A stretch of 39,045 bases of DNA from Ignavibacteriales bacterium (GTDB lineage: Bacteria > Bacteroidota > Ignavibacteria > Ignavibacteriales > Ignavibacteriaceae). The notes below the pieces were generated by a model, which saw only the letters and a program-made list of their open reading frames with translations, was not told the DNA's origin and ran no database searches. The DNA lies in NCBI GenBank assembly GCA_020061465.1, contig JAGUYG010000092.1, positions 1-39,045 of the forward strand, in the 5' to 3' direction. Shown one piece after another: positions 98 through 6,793 of this stretch (position 1 is its first letter; every line of letters begins with the position of its first letter). A program made the position numbers and the translations under genes.

Positions 98-163
98 CAA
101 AAAAATCACACCGTCTGCTTTAGTAAACAAAAAAGTAAATAATAAAATTTGAGGAATAATAAA

Positions 164-598
164 ATGAGCTGGGTAAGCATCTGGGTTCATCTGGTTTTTA
201 CAACAAAAAATAGAGAGAAAATCCTTGTTAAAGAAATTAGAAATGAAGTCTTCCAGCACATAAAACAAAATGCTGATAAAAAGGGGATTTGGATCGATTC
301 CGTTAATGGGTTTATGGAACATGTACATTGCCTTCTTTCACTTAATAATGACCAATCGATTAGTCAAGTTACACAACTAATTAAAGGTGAATCATCTTTC
401 TGGATAAATAATAATAGACTGGTCAATGGTAAATTTAACTGGCAGGATGATTATTGGGCAGTAAGTGTTAGTGAGAGTCATCTTAAATCTGTTAGAAAAT
501 ATATTCACGAGCAGGAAGAACATCACAGAGTGATATCATTCGATGAGGAGATTGAGCGGTTTATGAAAAAGTATGGATGGGTATATGTTAAAGGTTAA
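164..598 (+). CDS. IS200-like / REP-associated tyrosine (Y1) transposase
   Basis: Small single-domain Y1 HUH transposase of the IS200/TnpA-like group, which cuts and rejoins single-stranded DNA at hairpins through a 5'-phosphotyrosine. The N-terminus (WVHLVFTTKNRE) is typical, the metal-binding HUH pair is His53-Val-His55 in MEHVHCLL, and the nucleophile is probably Tyr113 in RKYIHEQEEHH. The C-terminal SVSES...EEHH block is also family-typical. An in-frame TTG exists at 149, but the ATG at 164 has a GAGGA ribosome site 8 bases upstream and starts at the conserved MSWVSIWVHL, giving 144 residues, a full-length size. No TnpB partner is present. Flanking hairpins sharing the GCTTTAGC core suggest a domesticated RAYT rather than a classical insertion sequence. 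It appears intact. Confidence 0.88.
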   Translation: MSWVSIWVHLVFTTKNREKILVKEIRNEVFQHIKQNADKKGIWIDSVNGFMEHVHCLLSLNNDQSISQVTQLIKGESSFWINNNRLVNGKFNWQDDYWAVSVSESHLKSVRKYIHEQEEHHRVISFDEEIERFMKKYGWVYVKG

Positions 599-879: not shown

Positions 880-1857
880 TCACACCAACTTCTCAATCAG
901 TAATTTCATATCATCCGGCAATTCCGAATCAAATATCATCTCTTTTTTAGTATGCGGATGAATGAAGCCAAGTGTTTTTGCGTGAAGCGCCTGGCGGGGC
1001 ATTATTTCTAAAAGATTTTGTATGCCGCTTTTTATTTTCGGCAGATTCGAACCGGCATGAATTTGCCTTCCTCCATAAACCGGATCGCCAAAAACAGGGT
1101 GCCCCGCTGCCGATAAATGAACTCTTATCTGATGTGTCCTTCCGGTTTTCAGTGTTAATTTTAACAACGAAGCAAATTCATACTCCTGCAAAACTTCATA
1201 GAGCGTTAGTGCATGTTTCCCTTCAGTAGTGCTTGCGGTGAATTTTTTTCTATCTGATTTACTTCGGGTAATGTATGATGAAATTTCTCCGGTCTTCTCA
1301 CTAAAGAATCCCCATACTACAGCCCAATACTCTCTTTGAATAGTATGCTTTGAGAATTGTGCGGCAAGCATAGCGTGTGTAAAATCATCTTTTGCTACTA
1401 CGAGCAGCCCGCTCGTATCTTTATCAATCCGATGAACAATACCCGGTCTGCCCGGTTCATTTAAACCGCTAAGTTTTTTAGTGTGATAAAGAAGTGCATT
1501 TACGAGAGTTCCGGTGTAATTTGCATAAGCCGGATGAGCAACCATACCGGCAGGCTTATTAACTATTAATAAATATTCATCTTCATAAACAATGTCGAGT
1601 GATATTTCTTCCGGTTCTACATTTTCGGGTCGGGGAGTAATTGGCTGAACAGCTTCTACAATATCGCCGGGCTGGACTTGATAGCTTGCCCTTACCAATT
1701 TACCGTTGACTCTTACAAGCTGTGCTTCGATTAACTTTTGTACTTTAGAGCGTGTGGCGTTTTCGATAAGATTAGTTAAATAGAGATCAAGCCTCTCTTT
1801 CTTCTTACCATCCGGAACTTCAAAGCGGTAACTTTTCTCCTTTATTATCTTCGTCAT
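880..1857 (-). CDS. rluD: RluA-family 23S rRNA pseudouridine synthase (RluD-like)
   Basis: Isomerises uridines in 23S rRNA. RluD of E. coli modifies helix 69; the family match here does not prove the exact site. Residues about 20-75 form an S4 RNA-binding domain (ERLDLYLTNL, then KLIEAQLVRVNG), followed by the catalytic domain with GIVHRIDKDTSGLLVV, where Asp145 is the expected nucleophile, and later KTGRTHQIRVHLS. At 325 residues it is full length. The ATG at 1857 has a GAAAGG site upstream and lies inside the 3' end of lspA (38-base overlap), so the two are probably co-transcribed. The lspA-rluD order is a common housekeeping arrangement. RluC is the main alternative; an S4 domain and this neighbourhood favour RluD. 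Confidence 0.92.
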   Translation of the reverse strand: MTKIIKEKSYRFEVPDGKKKERLDLYLTNLIENATRSKVQKLIEAQLVRVNGKLVRASYQVQPGDIVEAVQPITPRPENVEPEEISLDIVYEDEYLLIVNKPAGMVAHPAYANYTGTLVNALLYHTKKLSGLNEPGRPGIVHRIDKDTSGLLVVAKDDFTHAMLAAQFSKHTIQREYWAVVWGFFSEKTGEISSYITRSKSDRKKFTASTTEGKHALTLYEVLQEYEFASLLKLTLKTGRTHQIRVHLSAAGHPVFGDPVYGGRQIHAGSNLPKIKSGIQNLLEIMPRQALHAKTLGFIHPHTKKEMIFDSELPDDMKLLIEKLV

Positions 1858-2539
1858 CGGAATTTCCTTTCAGAGTGGATTCATTTTCATCACTCTCATT
1901 CTTCTGAACGCCGTCAGGACTTTCATCACCTAGAACGGTATCGGCTTTGGCAGATGCGTTTAATTCTTCCGCATACAGCGGCTGTTTAGCCGGGATGTCC
2001 TCACGTTTATCGCGGTAGAAGAAGATTAATATTAATACTCCGATCGTAACAGCGGCATCTGCAAAGTTAAAAATGGGCCATCTATCATAGCTCCTTCCGA
2101 ATACGGTAATATCAAAGAAATCGAAGTCTAAAAAATCTACTACTTTACCGTAGAACAACGGCGCATAACCGTAAAATACTCCATAGAACATTCTATCTAT
2201 TAAATTACCAATTGCTCCGCCGAGTATGAAAGCAAGCGCAATGCGGAGACTTAATCGATGGTTTCTAATAAGAAACATATAAATAACAATCCCGACGCTG
2301 GCAATTAAAGAAAAAATTGATATCCATAACTTGAAGCCGTCGCCCGGATCAATACCGAATGCCATTCCCGGATTTTCAATAAAAGTTAGCCTAAATAAAT
2401 CGCCGATGATAGGTATGCGCTGTCCGTGATACATTCCCTCATAATTAATATTTAAAAAAGGAATGGAAAAACCTTTTACCAGCAGTTTAGATAACTGGTC
2501 GATTAAGACTACAATGATTGATACGAATAATACTTTCAA
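1820..2539 (-). CDS. lspA: Lipoprotein signal peptidase (signal peptidase II)
   Basis: Inner-membrane aspartyl protease that cleaves signal peptides from diacylglyceryl-modified prolipoproteins. Both catalytic motifs are present: GNLIDR with Asp115 and FNFADAA with Asp161; NPGMAFG near residues 56-62 is the conserved periplasmic segment. Four membrane helices fit residues about 1-20, 70-90, 98-118 and 155-175. At 239 residues it exceeds the usual 160-180 because of an acidic, probably disordered cytoplasmic tail from about 178. The start is TTG at 2539, one base after the stop of the upstream miniature paralogue, so translation is probably coupled. It overlaps rluD downstream. Confidence 0.95.
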   Translation of the reverse strand: MKVLFVSIIVVLIDQLSKLLVKGFSIPFLNINYEGMYHGQRIPIIGDLFRLTFIENPGMAFGIDPGDGFKLWISIFSLIASVGIVIYMFLIRNHRLSLRIALAFILGGAIGNLIDRMFYGVFYGYAPLFYGKVVDFLDFDFFDITVFGRSYDRWPIFNFADAAVTIGVLILIFFYRDKREDIPAKQPLYAEELNASAKADTVLGDESPDGVQKNESDENESTLKGNSDDEDNKGEKLPL

Positions 2540-2540
2540 G

Positions 2541-2810
2541 CTATTCCCGACTTTCTTCTAAAATATTTTCTGCTATCTGCGGCTGTACATCTTCACACGA
2601 AATTTGCTTCCGATATGATAAGATGAAAAACACTGTTCCAAGCGTAATGGCGGCATTTGCAATATTAAAAACATTAGCGACAAAAATTTTTTGACCTTGA
2701 AGCAGCCCCTGTTGTTGAAAATTTAAAAACGGAATTGAAAGCCCTTTTAAGGATAGCTTTGTTGCCTGGTCAATAAATGTAATGAGTACCGAAAAGATCA
2801 ATACCTTCAA
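2541..2810 (-). CDS. Miniature LspA-like protein lacking the catalytic core
   Basis: An 89-residue relative of the LspA encoded next to it. Residues 1-42 match the first 42 of LspA at 22 positions, including IDQ..KL..KG.SIPFLN. The sequence then jumps to FNIANAAITLGTVFFILSYR, aligned with FNFADAAVTIGVLILIFFYR of LspA. About 109 residues are missing, including helices 2 and 3 and GNxxDR, and the second catalytic Asp is Asn52, so peptidase activity is not expected. Two membrane helices should remain. It is not an obvious wreck: the frame is open, an AAGGA site precedes the TTG start, and the stop is one base before lspA. It could be a fixed deletion duplicate, a regulator or assembly partner of LspA, or a translation-coupling leader. 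Confidence 0.8.
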   Translation of the reverse strand: MKVLIFSVLITFIDQATKLSLKGLSIPFLNFQQQGLLQGQKIFVANVFNIANAAITLGTVFFILSYRKQISCEDVQPQIAENILEESRE

Positions 2811-2843
2811 TAATTATCCTTGAATTATAAATGTAAAAGAAAA

Positions 2844-3605
2844 TTATCTTTTTTCTTGCCGCTGTTTAATCGGTAGACAAAGCTGGCTGTGCGGAACGGC
2901 TTCCAATCTTGCTTTGGGAATAAGCGGACACGTTTCGCACAGATGCTGCGGTTCCTCTATGCATTCGATACAGATTCCGTATGTTCCGGAATCAATTCTT
3001 TTAAGAGCATCTTCCAAATAACCTAAAAACTTATTTTCGCGTTGAGCATACAGATAAGTTTTTTCGCGTTCCATCGCATCGGTTCCCTGCTCTGCCATGT
3101 GAAGAGAGTAGGGAGAATTTTCATTTATATATTCGCCTGTCGTAGGGTCGAGCATCTGATCTCTTAAATTTTGAAGCTGCTCAATTATTTCATCCCGTTT
3201 GTCGAGAATGATTTTCTTGAAGTGCTCGAGATCTTTTTGGTTATACTTTTTAATTTTCTCAAGAGCTTTAGCGCGTGCTTCGGCAGCACTCACAAAATCG
3301 ATTTCGGCTTCAATCCTTTCCTGCTTTTTTCCTTTTCTCCGGGGTTTTGTTACCGCAGCAATTTTAACGGCTTTTTCTTCAGCAATTTTTTTCTTTATTG
3401 TTTTTTTCTCGGCTTCTTTTTTAACTGGAATTGTCTTTTTTATATTTTCCTTTGCAGCAGTTTTCTTTGCCGCGGGTTTTGCTTTTACAGCCTTCTGGGG
3501 CAGCTTCTTTACAGCCGTTTTTTTAGCTGCAGCATTTTTGCTTTTGGCAGAAGAGCGAGCGGTCTTCTTTGAAGTTGTTTTTTTCGTTGTAATTTTCTTC
3601 GCCAT
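2844..3605 (-). CDS. DksA/TraR-type zinc-finger protein with Lys/Ala-rich N-terminal tail
   Basis: Residues about 100-253 are DksA-like: a coiled coil (about 120-205) with EQGTDAMERE near its tip, then YGICIECIEEPQHLCETCPLIP continuing to the RLEAVPHSQLC segment. DksA-family proteins enter the RNA polymerase secondary channel or act as sporulation-type zinc-finger proteins. The cysteines are Cys212, 215, 223, 226 and 243; the usual final CxxC is incomplete (CLPI), and an extra CETC pair sits in an insertion, so zinc may be bound by 212/215/223/226. Residues 1-95 are nearly all Lys, Ala and Thr, like histone H1-type bacterial proteins, and probably bind DNA or RNA. A strong AAGGAGG precedes the ATG. 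It lies between ileS and lspA, a common order in this phylum. Confidence 0.85.
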   Translation of the reverse strand: MAKKITTKKTTSKKTARSSAKSKNAAAKKTAVKKLPQKAVKAKPAAKKTAAKENIKKTIPVKKEAEKKTIKKKIAEEKAVKIAAVTKPRRKGKKQERIEAEIDFVSAAEARAKALEKIKKYNQKDLEHFKKIILDKRDEIIEQLQNLRDQMLDPTTGEYINENSPYSLHMAEQGTDAMEREKTYLYAQRENKFLGYLEDALKRIDSGTYGICIECIEEPQHLCETCPLIPKARLEAVPHSQLCLPIKQRQEKR

Positions 3606-3622: not shown

Positions 3623-6600
3623 TTAGGAATTTACCTTTTCTATTTGAATGGAGCAGTCAAATTCGCCAATCTTCCACTCCTGTTTGTCGGAACGATCCTT
3701 AGGAATAGTACCGTTATTTTTGTTCTCATTAATTAGTGATTCGGCTAATGTTTCGTTAGAAACATAATCGCTAAAAGCAGTAATAGCTTCAACAAGCTCC
3801 GGGCTGCCATTAAACGAAATTTTGATTCTGTCGGTTACTTCAAAACCGGCGTCCTTCCGCATGTTTTGTATTCTATTCACAAACTCTCTTGCCAATCCTT
3901 CGGCTACAAGTTCGGGAGTTAGTTCAGTATCAAGAGCAACCGTTACGCTTTCATCGCTTTCAACAACCCAGCCGGTAATTTCAGAGCTAATAATTTCTAC
4001 ATCTTCGGGTGTAATTGATAATTCTTCGCCTTCAATATTTATTACAACCGGTTTATCGGATTCCAAATCGGCTATTTCATTTTTACCGAATTTAGTAATA
4101 GCCGCGGCAGCTGTCTTAACTTTTTTCCCGAATTTTGGACCAATCGATTTAAAATTTGCTTTTGCGTTCTTATTCACGATTTCAGAATCGTCATGAAGCG
4201 GGATTAACTCTTTTATATTTACCTCATCTAAAATTACATCTTTCATCTTCTCTAATGCAATGCGTTTTGATTTATCAACCACTACCATAATCTTTTGAAG
4301 CGGCTGCCTTACTTTTAAATTGGATTTTGCGCGCATTGCCCGGGTCAAATAAACCACGCGCTGCGCAATGTCCATTTTTTCCTCAAGCTCTTTATCTATA
4401 TAAGAAATTTTTGGGAAATTTGTCAAGTGAACCGATTCGTGTTCTTCTCTTTTGGTTATCGAATTTAAATTTTGGTAAATCTCTTCGGCAACGAACGGAG
4501 CGAACGGTGAAGTTAGTTTAGCCACGGTTATTAAACAATCATACAACGTTTGGTAAGCCGAAATTTTGCTTAGATTCATCTCGGATTTCCAGAAGCGCCT
4601 CCGGCTCCGGCGTACATACCAATTCGAAAGGTGGTCAATCGTAAAATTAGAAACCGCTCTTGCCGCTTTTGTAACATCGTAGGCATCCATTAATTCTTCG
4701 TATTCAGCAACAAGTGAATTGAGCTTGGAAATAATCCATCTGTCAATCTCGGATCTTTTCTCATAAGGAAGCGGCTCTTCTTCGAACTTGAATTTATCAA
4801 TGTTTGCATATAACGCAAAGAATGAGTAGGTGTTAACCAGCGTTCCGAAAAATTTTCTTTGAACTTCGACCAAACCTTCTTCATCAAATAGAGTAGGACG
4901 CCATGGGGGACTGTTAGTTACCAAATACCATCTTGTTGTATCCGCTCCGTATTTATCAAAAAGCTCAAACGGATCGACGGTGTTGCCTCTCGATTTGGAC
5001 ATCTTCAATCCGTTTTTGTCAAGTATTAACTCATTTACAATAATGTTTTTGAAAGCAACATTGTCAAAAAGCATTGAGGCAATTGCATGTAAAGTATAGA
5101 ACCAGCCGCGTGTTTGATCTATTCCTTCGCAAATAAAGTCTGCCGGGAAAAATTTCTTTTCGAACAGCTCTTTGTTTTCGAATGGATAATGATATTGTGC
5201 AAACGGCATAGCCCCGGAATCAAACCAAACATCGATTAGTTCAGGTGTTCGTTTGTAAATTTTTCCGTTCTTCTCGAATAAAATTTTATCAACGAACGGT
5301 TTATGGAGATCGAGATCCTGGATATCTTTTACAGAAACTCTTTTACCGTTTTCTTCTATAAATCCTGCTTTCAATTCTTCTATACTTCCCACGGCAAACA
5401 TATCGCCGTCATCTGCAAGCCAAATTGGCAGCGGAGTTGCCCAAAATCTATCGCGTGAAAGTGCCCAATCTTTATTTTCTTCAAGCCAGTTGCCAAATCT
5501 TCCCGAACCGACTTCGGGCGGGCACCAGTTAATGGTTTTATTTAATTCTATCATTCTTTGAGCGATAGAAGTTGTACGGATAAACCACGATTCCCGCGCG
5601 TAATAAATTACGGGAACGTCTTCATGCCGCCAGCTAAAAGGATATGAGTGAACTATCGTCTCTTTCTTAAAGAGCTTCCCCTCTTCCTTTAACTTTTGGA
5701 TGATTCCTTTGTCAGCATCTTTAACAAATAGTCCTGCAAAATCTTTTATTTCATCGGTAAATAAACCACCTCGTGTAACGGGCTGAAGCATCGGCAAGTT
5801 GTACTTTTTCGAAAGTTCATAGTCATCCTGTCCGAAAGCAGGTGCAATATGAACAATACCCGATCCATCCTCGGTGCTTACAAACTCTGCCAATGTAACA
5901 TAGAATGCTTTTTTGTCGGGTTTTATGTACGGTAATAGCTGTTCATATTCGATACCGTCGAGGGTAGAACCTTTGAATTCATTACTAATTTCGTAATCAC
6001 CTTCAATTACAGGAAGCCGGGCTTTAGCAAGAATAATTTTCTTTCCGTTCCAATTAATCTTCACATAATCTACATTAGGTCCTACGGCAAGAGCAACGTT
6101 TGAAATTAGAGTCCATGGCGTTGTAGTCCAAACCAAAAAGTGTTCGTCTCGGTTTTTAATCTTAAACAACACATAAACCGAAGGGTCTTTAGTCTCACGG
6201 TAACCTAATGCTAATTCATGAGAAGAAAGAACTGTTTCCGATTTGGGATCTTGAGGAACTATTTTATAATCTTTATAAATAAGTCCTTTATCGAAAAAAG
6301 TTTTTAACGCCCACCAAACGGATTCGATGTATTCGTTTTTCAGGGTGATATACGGATTGTCAAGATCGATCCAATAACCCATACGGGTTGTCATTTTTTC
6401 CCACAAATCGAGGTAAGTAAAGACTGATTCGCGGCAGGCTTGGTTATATTTTTCAACCCCGAATTCTAAAACTTCGCTTTTGTGCTTGATGCCAAGTTTT
6501 TTTTCGACTTCAATTTCCACCGGCAGACCGTGTGTATCCCAGCCGGCTTTTCTTTCAACTCTAAATCCTTTTAAAGTTTTGTAGCGGCAAACTAAGTCCT

Positions 6601-6793
6601 TGAGAGTACGGGACATTACGTGATGAATACCCGGCTTGCCGTTGGCAGTGGGCGGTCCTTCATAAAAAGCGAAAGAATTATTTTCATCCCTCGTCGTAAT
6701 GCTTTTTTCAAAAATATTCTTCTCTTTCCAGAATTGTAATATTTTTTCTTCTATTTCAGGGTAGCTTATTTTTTCTAAATTTTGCTTGAACAT
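3623..6793 (-). CDS. ileS: Isoleucyl-tRNA synthetase, type 2
   Basis: Class I aminoacyl-tRNA synthetase charging tRNA-Ile, with an editing domain inserted in the Rossmann fold. The HIGH-type motif is GIHH at residues 55-58 (PTANGKPGIHHVMSRTLKD) and KMSKS is at 597-601. The CP1 editing domain contains LVWTTTPWTLISNVALAV. The 1056-residue length and the PTANGKPGIHH form mark the eukaryote-like IleS2 class rather than the roughly 940-residue IleS1 with a C-terminal zinc finger; IleS2 enzymes are known to be mupirocin-insensitive. It is the first gene after a 184-base gap and precedes the DksA-like gene by 17 bases. No strong ribosome site precedes the ATG. A 15-base palindrome lies 43 bases upstream. 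Confidence 0.97.
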   Translation of the reverse strand: MFKQNLEKISYPEIEEKILQFWKEKNIFEKSITTRDENNSFAFYEGPPTANGKPGIHHVMSRTLKDLVCRYKTLKGFRVERKAGWDTHGLPVEIEVEKKLGIKHKSEVLEFGVEKYNQACRESVFTYLDLWEKMTTRMGYWIDLDNPYITLKNEYIESVWWALKTFFDKGLIYKDYKIVPQDPKSETVLSSHELALGYRETKDPSVYVLFKIKNRDEHFLVWTTTPWTLISNVALAVGPNVDYVKINWNGKKIILAKARLPVIEGDYEISNEFKGSTLDGIEYEQLLPYIKPDKKAFYVTLAEFVSTEDGSGIVHIAPAFGQDDYELSKKYNLPMLQPVTRGGLFTDEIKDFAGLFVKDADKGIIQKLKEEGKLFKKETIVHSYPFSWRHEDVPVIYYARESWFIRTTSIAQRMIELNKTINWCPPEVGSGRFGNWLEENKDWALSRDRFWATPLPIWLADDGDMFAVGSIEELKAGFIEENGKRVSVKDIQDLDLHKPFVDKILFEKNGKIYKRTPELIDVWFDSGAMPFAQYHYPFENKELFEKKFFPADFICEGIDQTRGWFYTLHAIASMLFDNVAFKNIIVNELILDKNGLKMSKSRGNTVDPFELFDKYGADTTRWYLVTNSPPWRPTLFDEEGLVEVQRKFFGTLVNTYSFFALYANIDKFKFEEEPLPYEKRSEIDRWIISKLNSLVAEYEELMDAYDVTKAARAVSNFTIDHLSNWYVRRSRRRFWKSEMNLSKISAYQTLYDCLITVAKLTSPFAPFVAEEIYQNLNSITKREEHESVHLTNFPKISYIDKELEEKMDIAQRVVYLTRAMRAKSNLKVRQPLQKIMVVVDKSKRIALEKMKDVILDEVNIKELIPLHDDSEIVNKNAKANFKSIGPKFGKKVKTAAAAITKFGKNEIADLESDKPVVINIEGEELSITPEDVEIISSEITGWVVESDESVTVALDTELTPELVAEGLAREFVNRIQNMRKDAGFEVTDRIKISFNGSPELVEAITAFSDYVSNETLAESLINENKNNGTIPKDRSDKQEWKIGEFDCSIQIEKVNS

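Follow-up and report, generated by a model that had tools for sequence, protein, structure and literature searches.

A miniature LspA-like frame ahead of lspA in an Ignavibacteriales genome appears to be an internally deleted first gene of a tandem lspA pair, with putative translational coupling to the second

Introduction

Tandem genes of lipoprotein signal peptidase are known from Myxococcus xanthus, where lspA1 and lspA2 have been proposed to serve housekeeping (review PMC8689077, citing Xiao and Wall 2014). They resemble the pairs of Ignavibacteria described below in that two lspA genes lie side by side, but they are part of an operon with lgt, and the passage of that review devoted to them mentions no deleted copy. 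In E. coli, a higher dosage of LspA is reported to give tolerance to an LspA inhibitor (PMC7482066), and, by analogy, such tolerance would be one possible benefit of a second lspA copy. The enzyme has been reported to be monomeric in nanodiscs (PMC5291076). In the open-licence literature, no mention of a deleted tandem lspA gene was found in titles and abstract openings, and no paper combining lspA, tandem and Ignavibacter was found.

The stretch of DNA analysed in the present study (the window) comprises the 39,045 nucleotides of contig JAGUYG010000092.1 of an Ignavibacteriales bacterium (assembly GCA_020061465.1). It contains a short LspA-like frame, hereinafter mini-LspA, placed directly ahead of an intact lspA gene.

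Structure of the mini-LspA locus

Mini-LspA (2541..2810, minus strand) is a frame of 89 amino acids with a TTG start and two possible membrane spans, lacking the catalytic Asp. A Shine-Dalgarno-like AAGGA can be read in the sequence at 2817..2821, six bases ahead of the TTG. Upstream, on the same strand, lie the gene of a DksA/TraR-like zinc-finger protein (2844..3605) and a frame of 1056 amino acids (3623..6793), which we take to be ileS; both stand in the order found in relatives. Downstream, base 2540 is the sole nucleotide separating the mini-LspA frame from that of lspA2 (1820..2539, minus strand, 239 amino acids), whose TTG lies one base past the mini-LspA stop, and the end of lspA2 is overlapped by the gene of an RluA-family pseudouridine synthase (880..1857, minus strand). 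By its motifs, lspA2 encodes an intact lipoprotein signal peptidase: it carries both Asp residues, ENPG, GNxxDR, VVDF and FNxAD, passes the Pfam cut-off and is matched by the solved LspA structures 5dir, 6ryo and 9emz. It is the one lspA match of the genome, where no second match was found elsewhere.

The alignment shows that mini-LspA lacks ENPG..FG, GNxxDR and VVDF, and that its homology to LspA resumes at the last helix, FNIANAA, so that the missing centre amounts to 109 residues compared with the window LspA (Asp14 to Phe157). Of the two catalytic aspartates of Peptidase A8 (GNxxDR and FNxAD), the first is absent and the second is replaced by Asn52, a position occupied by Asp in all other aligned rows reaching there. 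The first and last helices of the solved LspA structures have an equivalent sequence in mini-LspA, but the active site has not; a search of mini-LspA itself against solved structures found no LspA match. Pfam Peptidase_A8 (PF01252) gave 0.015 and 15.9 bits, below the cut-off of 25. The likeness to LspA nevertheless exceeds chance, because the NCBIfam lipoprotein signal peptidase models match at 1.3e-5 and 3.1e-4, although far below their cut-offs. Hydropathy peaks at residues about 3-21 and 47-65 suggest that the product is probably a two-helix protein. The first-pass annotation had described an 89-residue, LspA-derived protein that lacks the active site, keeps the terminal helices of LspA and stops one base before lspA, and this description proved accurate. 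Its count of 22 residues shared with the window LspA among the 42 N-terminal ones (52%) was reproduced as well. The codons differ widely, 9 of the 42 being identical, 13 synonymous and 20 nonsynonymous.

The same window carries an IS200-like (Y1) transposase frame (149-598, plus strand; Pfam 7e-26) flanked by CCGTCAGCTTTAGCTGACGG palindromes at 13-61 and 758-814. The 21-base form of the palindrome has three exact copies in the genome, one of them in the window. Frame and palindromes presumably represent a RAYT with REP-type repeats.

Tandem lspA genes in related genomes

The family set comprised 80 genomes including that of the window, 77 with an lspA match and three without. Besides that of the window, 76 family genomes have a match; the loci of all of them except G100, 75 in total, were compared, together with those of five genomes of the same order, of which G038, G042, G044 and G046 were chosen since an earlier search hinted at pairs. 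G040 (L143), the sixth genome read from the order, has a pair too but stands outside every count. The genome of the window is the sole representative of its genus among the genomes compared. Tandem full-length lspA genes occupy the slot in 26 of the 75 family loci and in four of the five order loci, a set in which four were chosen for pairs. The gene order in pair loci is ileS-dksA-lspA1-lspA2-rluD, mini-LspA occupying the lspA1 slot, and the order ileS, dksA, lspA, rluD was found in nearly all loci extending that far. A single lspA was found in 50 loci, six of them cut by contig ends (L082, L101, L114, L128, L134 and L135); the single lspA of L082 resembles a first copy.

All tandem copies are full length except the second copy of L136, which runs off its contig. 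The integrity of the active site was scored at 18 positions (DQ and K of IDQxxK, N and G of ENPG, FG, GNxxDR, VVDF and FNxAD). The first copies of the 30 relatives keep 17 of them, save for Ala in place of one Gly in three copies and Cys in place of one Phe in one; the eighteenth position, the residue after the last Asp, varies among first copies. Thus, where the window has a dead mini-protein, many relatives keep a complete protease gene.

When copies are labelled on the tree as being or not being the second member of a pair, five or more changes of label are required even if strongly supported branches alone are considered; first copies were therefore lost, or gained, more than once. A single origin of the first copies may still be accommodated by the tree. 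In the pair of L115 (G018), the first copy has the second-copy feature WPVFN and the second copy is long-branched, perhaps as a result of an inverted or independent duplication. In four genomes of genus g21 (L086, L087, L126 and L127), about 1 kb lies between dksA and lspA, and in L087 this extra DNA of about 1 kb holds a membrane-protein-like frame of 277 amino acids.

No other mini-LspA was found in the compared loci (75 of the family and five of the order), using a locus pipeline that did detect the one in the window. The same was true of the matches listed for 149 genomes of the class (own genome included, 139 with a match), where the smallest other lspA frame has 149 amino acids (G153). 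Among 80 named loci, many of them on the same contigs as those already compared, no lspA frame below 150 amino acids was found, 16 having two lspA genes and 64 one. A scan of genome contigs with mini-LspA gave 221 pattern matches, none from a relative, the genome of the window possibly not being among those covered. In G002 (L142), the lspA start at a contig end runs into unrelated sequence, giving an 80-residue frame that stands outside the mini count. Nor was a remnant of lspA1 found between dksA and a single lspA in the 40 gaps of at least 60 nt: the gap matches are runs into the first codons of lspA itself, which were included in the query gaps (a few start upstream of them by some codons), and weak matches in L087 and L127 (E about 0.03) lie inside a membrane-protein gene.

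Relationship of mini-LspA to lspA1

The features by which a deletion derivative of lspA1 can be recognised, namely a place downstream of dksA and ahead of lspA2 in the same orientation, the absence of a Pro before the last helix and a tail of the form EN-x-(L/I/F), were all found in mini-LspA. Counted from the Asp of DQ to the Phe of FN, 24 of the 30 first copies of relatives span 142 residues, five 143 and one 133; among 30 second copies the span is 143 in 29 and 137 in one. In mini-LspA it is 34, which places 108 codons as missing in comparison with the lspA1 of most relatives (142-residue span). The last helix of mini-LspA opens with ANVFN, without Pro, and 25 of the 30 first copies do likewise (NYVFN, SYVFN and similar), the first copies having the Pro before (V/I)FN being those of L115 and L138-L141. 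Trp-Pro or Phe-Pro precedes VFN in all 30 readable second copies, the window lspA2 included. The C-terminal tail of mini-LspA, QIAENILEESRE (2544..2579, minus strand), whose DNA lies just ahead of the lspA2 start, contains ENIL; EN-x-(L/I/F) occurs in 12 of 30 first-copy tails and in none of 30 second-copy tails.

The identity and profile comparison, from which L101 and the second copy of L136 were left out, gave 28.4 bits for the last helix of mini-LspA with the first-copy profile versus 18.0 with the other profile; the scores of the first helix were even (64.6 versus 63.2). Against kinship with lspA1, the best identities of mini-LspA are to single-copy LspA rows, at 36 of 64 positions. Alignment of mini-LspA with full-length copies misplaces its second helix; in the core alignment, which leaves out L134, L135 and L101, mini-LspA was dropped and then re-added by hand. 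The tree of 110 rows, which leaves out L134 and L135, placed mini-LspA beside the divergent second copy of L115 with negligible support (51/11). A second tree grouped it with the single-copy L118 (0.54), and the next larger group comprises 35 leaves (0.88), in which all 12 leaves among those listed are first copies.

Mini-LspA and the tandem lspA1-lspA2 pairs of Ignavibacteria have in common the slot, the orientation, the tight junction, the TTG start, the lspA1-type tail and the proline-free VFN. In the relatives, lspA1 is complete and has kept its active site, whereas mini-LspA is short of 108 codons and of the remaining Asp. We infer that lspA1, which stands first in the tandem, lost its middle in frame and that mini-LspA is its remnant.

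One candidate deletion junction lies at 2682..2690 (minus strand, codons Lys41-Ile42-Phe43), and the other a few codons further on, at Phe48-Asn49. Three of 30 first copies (L076, L078 and L081) have repeats of at least six bases that join both sides of the breakpoint at a spacing of 324 nt, and nine of 30 have them at 321 nt, the commonest spacing. For spacings of 280-365 nt the mean is 0.69 copies each, and the repeats are not regarded as a strong signal. A deletion of the lspA1 middle between short repeats is plausible; an event of 321 nt would require the loss of one more codon. A repeat of AGAATT 324 nt apart, seen in three of eight first copies tested, was rejected as the breakpoint on the full count of three versus nine of 30.

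Junction with lspA2 and putative translational coupling

In 31 pairs including the window, the second start lies at -4 relative to the first stop in seven, at +1 in 11, at +8 to +19 in nine and at +33 to +108 in four, the +1 class including L071 and L083, which have no usable start codon exactly at that place. Stop and start therefore overlap or nearly touch (-4 or +1) in 18 of the 31. None of five Shine-Dalgarno-like words scanned precedes the lspA2 start of the window; 22 of 31 second copies have one. The motif AATAAGGA, a likely ribosome-binding site of lspA2, lies inside the last codons of nine of 30 first copies, and thus the landing site of lspA2 would often fall within the end of lspA1. 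In these nine, AATAAGGA also spells part of first-copy tails such as ENYLAENKD, so that the likeness of the peptides may instead be conservation of the RNA. No fold hiding the lspA2 start was seen when the junction RNA was folded (z 1.24 and -0.07).

The start codons of lspA in the window and L062-L141 (109 copies, three contig-cut copies left out) are TTG in 81, GTG in 18 and ATG in four; in the other six, the homologous site offers no usable codon. The retention of a weak start codon throughout a family may keep LspA output low.

The following course of events can be proposed. An in-frame loss of 108 codons from lspA1 would have taken away the middle helices together with the active site, and the remaining mini-LspA would probably be a two-helix hairpin unable to cleave signal peptides. 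The cleavage would be performed by lspA2, as it is by the sole lspA of many relatives. The mini-LspA frame is probably still translated from its predicted good ribosome-binding site, and ribosomes finishing it may restart at the TTG of lspA2, a gene that appears to have a weak ribosome-binding site of its own. A loss keeping the frame and the end would maintain the supply of ribosomes to lspA2; a frameshift might not. The combination of a good site on mini-LspA with a stop beside a weakly preceded lspA2 would make the feeding of ribosomes into lspA2 its likeliest remaining role. With modest confidence, we favour the reading that mini-LspA is an lspA1 remnant left by an in-frame loss, and that its likeliest remaining effect is a putative translational coupling to lspA2.

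Divergence, age and alternative explanations

The protein distance between first and second copies is 0.36-0.67 in 29 other pairs and 0.50 for mini-LspA and lspA2 (the L136 pair and L101 being left out of the distance comparison). The ratio of first-copy to second-copy divergence is 1.64 for mini-LspA, the highest of 30 pairs (others 0.93-1.51), partly because the window lspA2 is slow; in absolute terms, the mean distance of mini-LspA (0.582) is fourth among first copies, and the end branches of the L141 and L111 first copies are longer than its own. In each part, two of 31 profile scores fall below that of mini-LspA, which ranks towards the bottom of the first copies. In the conserved-residue counts, which leave out L101 and the second copy of L136, mini-LspA has changed three of 14 positions conserved to at least 90% in other copies, namely the Asp and two Val residues of the last helix, and has kept all seven strongly conserved N-terminal positions. 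Among 30 intact first copies, 16 changed none of the 14, seven one, six two and one three. Mini-LspA is under relaxed constraint, not collapsed. A neutral simulation, started from its DNA with 7% indels per substitution assumed, gave probabilities of an open frame with at most three conserved losses of 0.52, 0.21, 0.04 and 0.008 at 0.02, 0.05, 0.1 and 0.15 substitutions per site; therefore, either the deletion is young or constraint acts on the frame.

These results bear on several proposals of the first-pass annotation. It had taken the codon differences as the sign of an old, maintained reading frame. The divergence is typical of intact lspA1/lspA2 pairs and belongs to the pair, and therefore does not date the deletion. 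The suggestion of a translation-coupling leader is borne out as regards placement, stop and start being one base apart, and nothing was found pointing to the other suggested role, that of a regulator or partner of LspA. Absence from all close relatives, or a full-length second LspA in them of which this copy is a recent deletion with dN/dS near 1, had been named as findings that would speak against an old mini gene. As regards presence and length, this is what was seen: a full-length second LspA occupies the slot in 30 loci, and no relative examined has a mini-LspA.

Recent neutral decay fits almost as well as a coupling leader. It assumes the same in-frame loss from lspA1 and therefore the identical anatomy, with a frame open only through youth and taking no part in the translation of lspA2. 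The simulated values at 0.05 and 0.1 substitutions per site make a young remnant quite possible, the raised relative divergence and the lost Asp suit it, and the 40 gaps between dksA and lspA with no remnant indicate that complete loss is common. On the other hand, the good ribosome-binding site, the intact frame, the one-base spacing and the weak lspA2 site would then be a coincidence, although the first three could be a legacy of the tandem pair. On balance, we consider a plain recent pseudogene a serious though somewhat unlikely explanation.

A maintained mini-protein, i.e. a two-helix derivative binding or regulating LspA or its substrates, would account for the open frame, the retention of the first and last helices and the unchanged N-terminal positions (seven of seven). 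But the retained residues are those inherited from lspA1, none of the other 29 first copies has diverged as far in relation to its partner, the protein occurs in only one genome among the loci compared and matches listed, and the monomeric state reported for LspA lends no support to a partner role, which makes this explanation improbable. It seems very doubtful that a full protease paralogue was turned through in-frame loss into a two-helix protein that is kept as a coupling leader or membrane partner tuning LspA2. That a full lspA1 lost its middle during contig building is scarcely credible, even in a draft genome of 122 contigs, since the number of missing bases is divisible by three, the flanking parts have themselves changed (Asp to Asn, higher relative divergence) and the genome has no other lspA match.

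Conclusions

Mini-LspA looks like ordinary gene loss, its frame possibly having stayed readable since lspA2 starts at its end. The analysis brings out a tandem lspA pair common in Ignavibacteria relatives, and mini-LspA appears to show such a protease pair during the loss of one copy, a loss that spares the shared translation start. If the coupling is true, the locus would be a simple natural example of why operon remnants can stay in frame.
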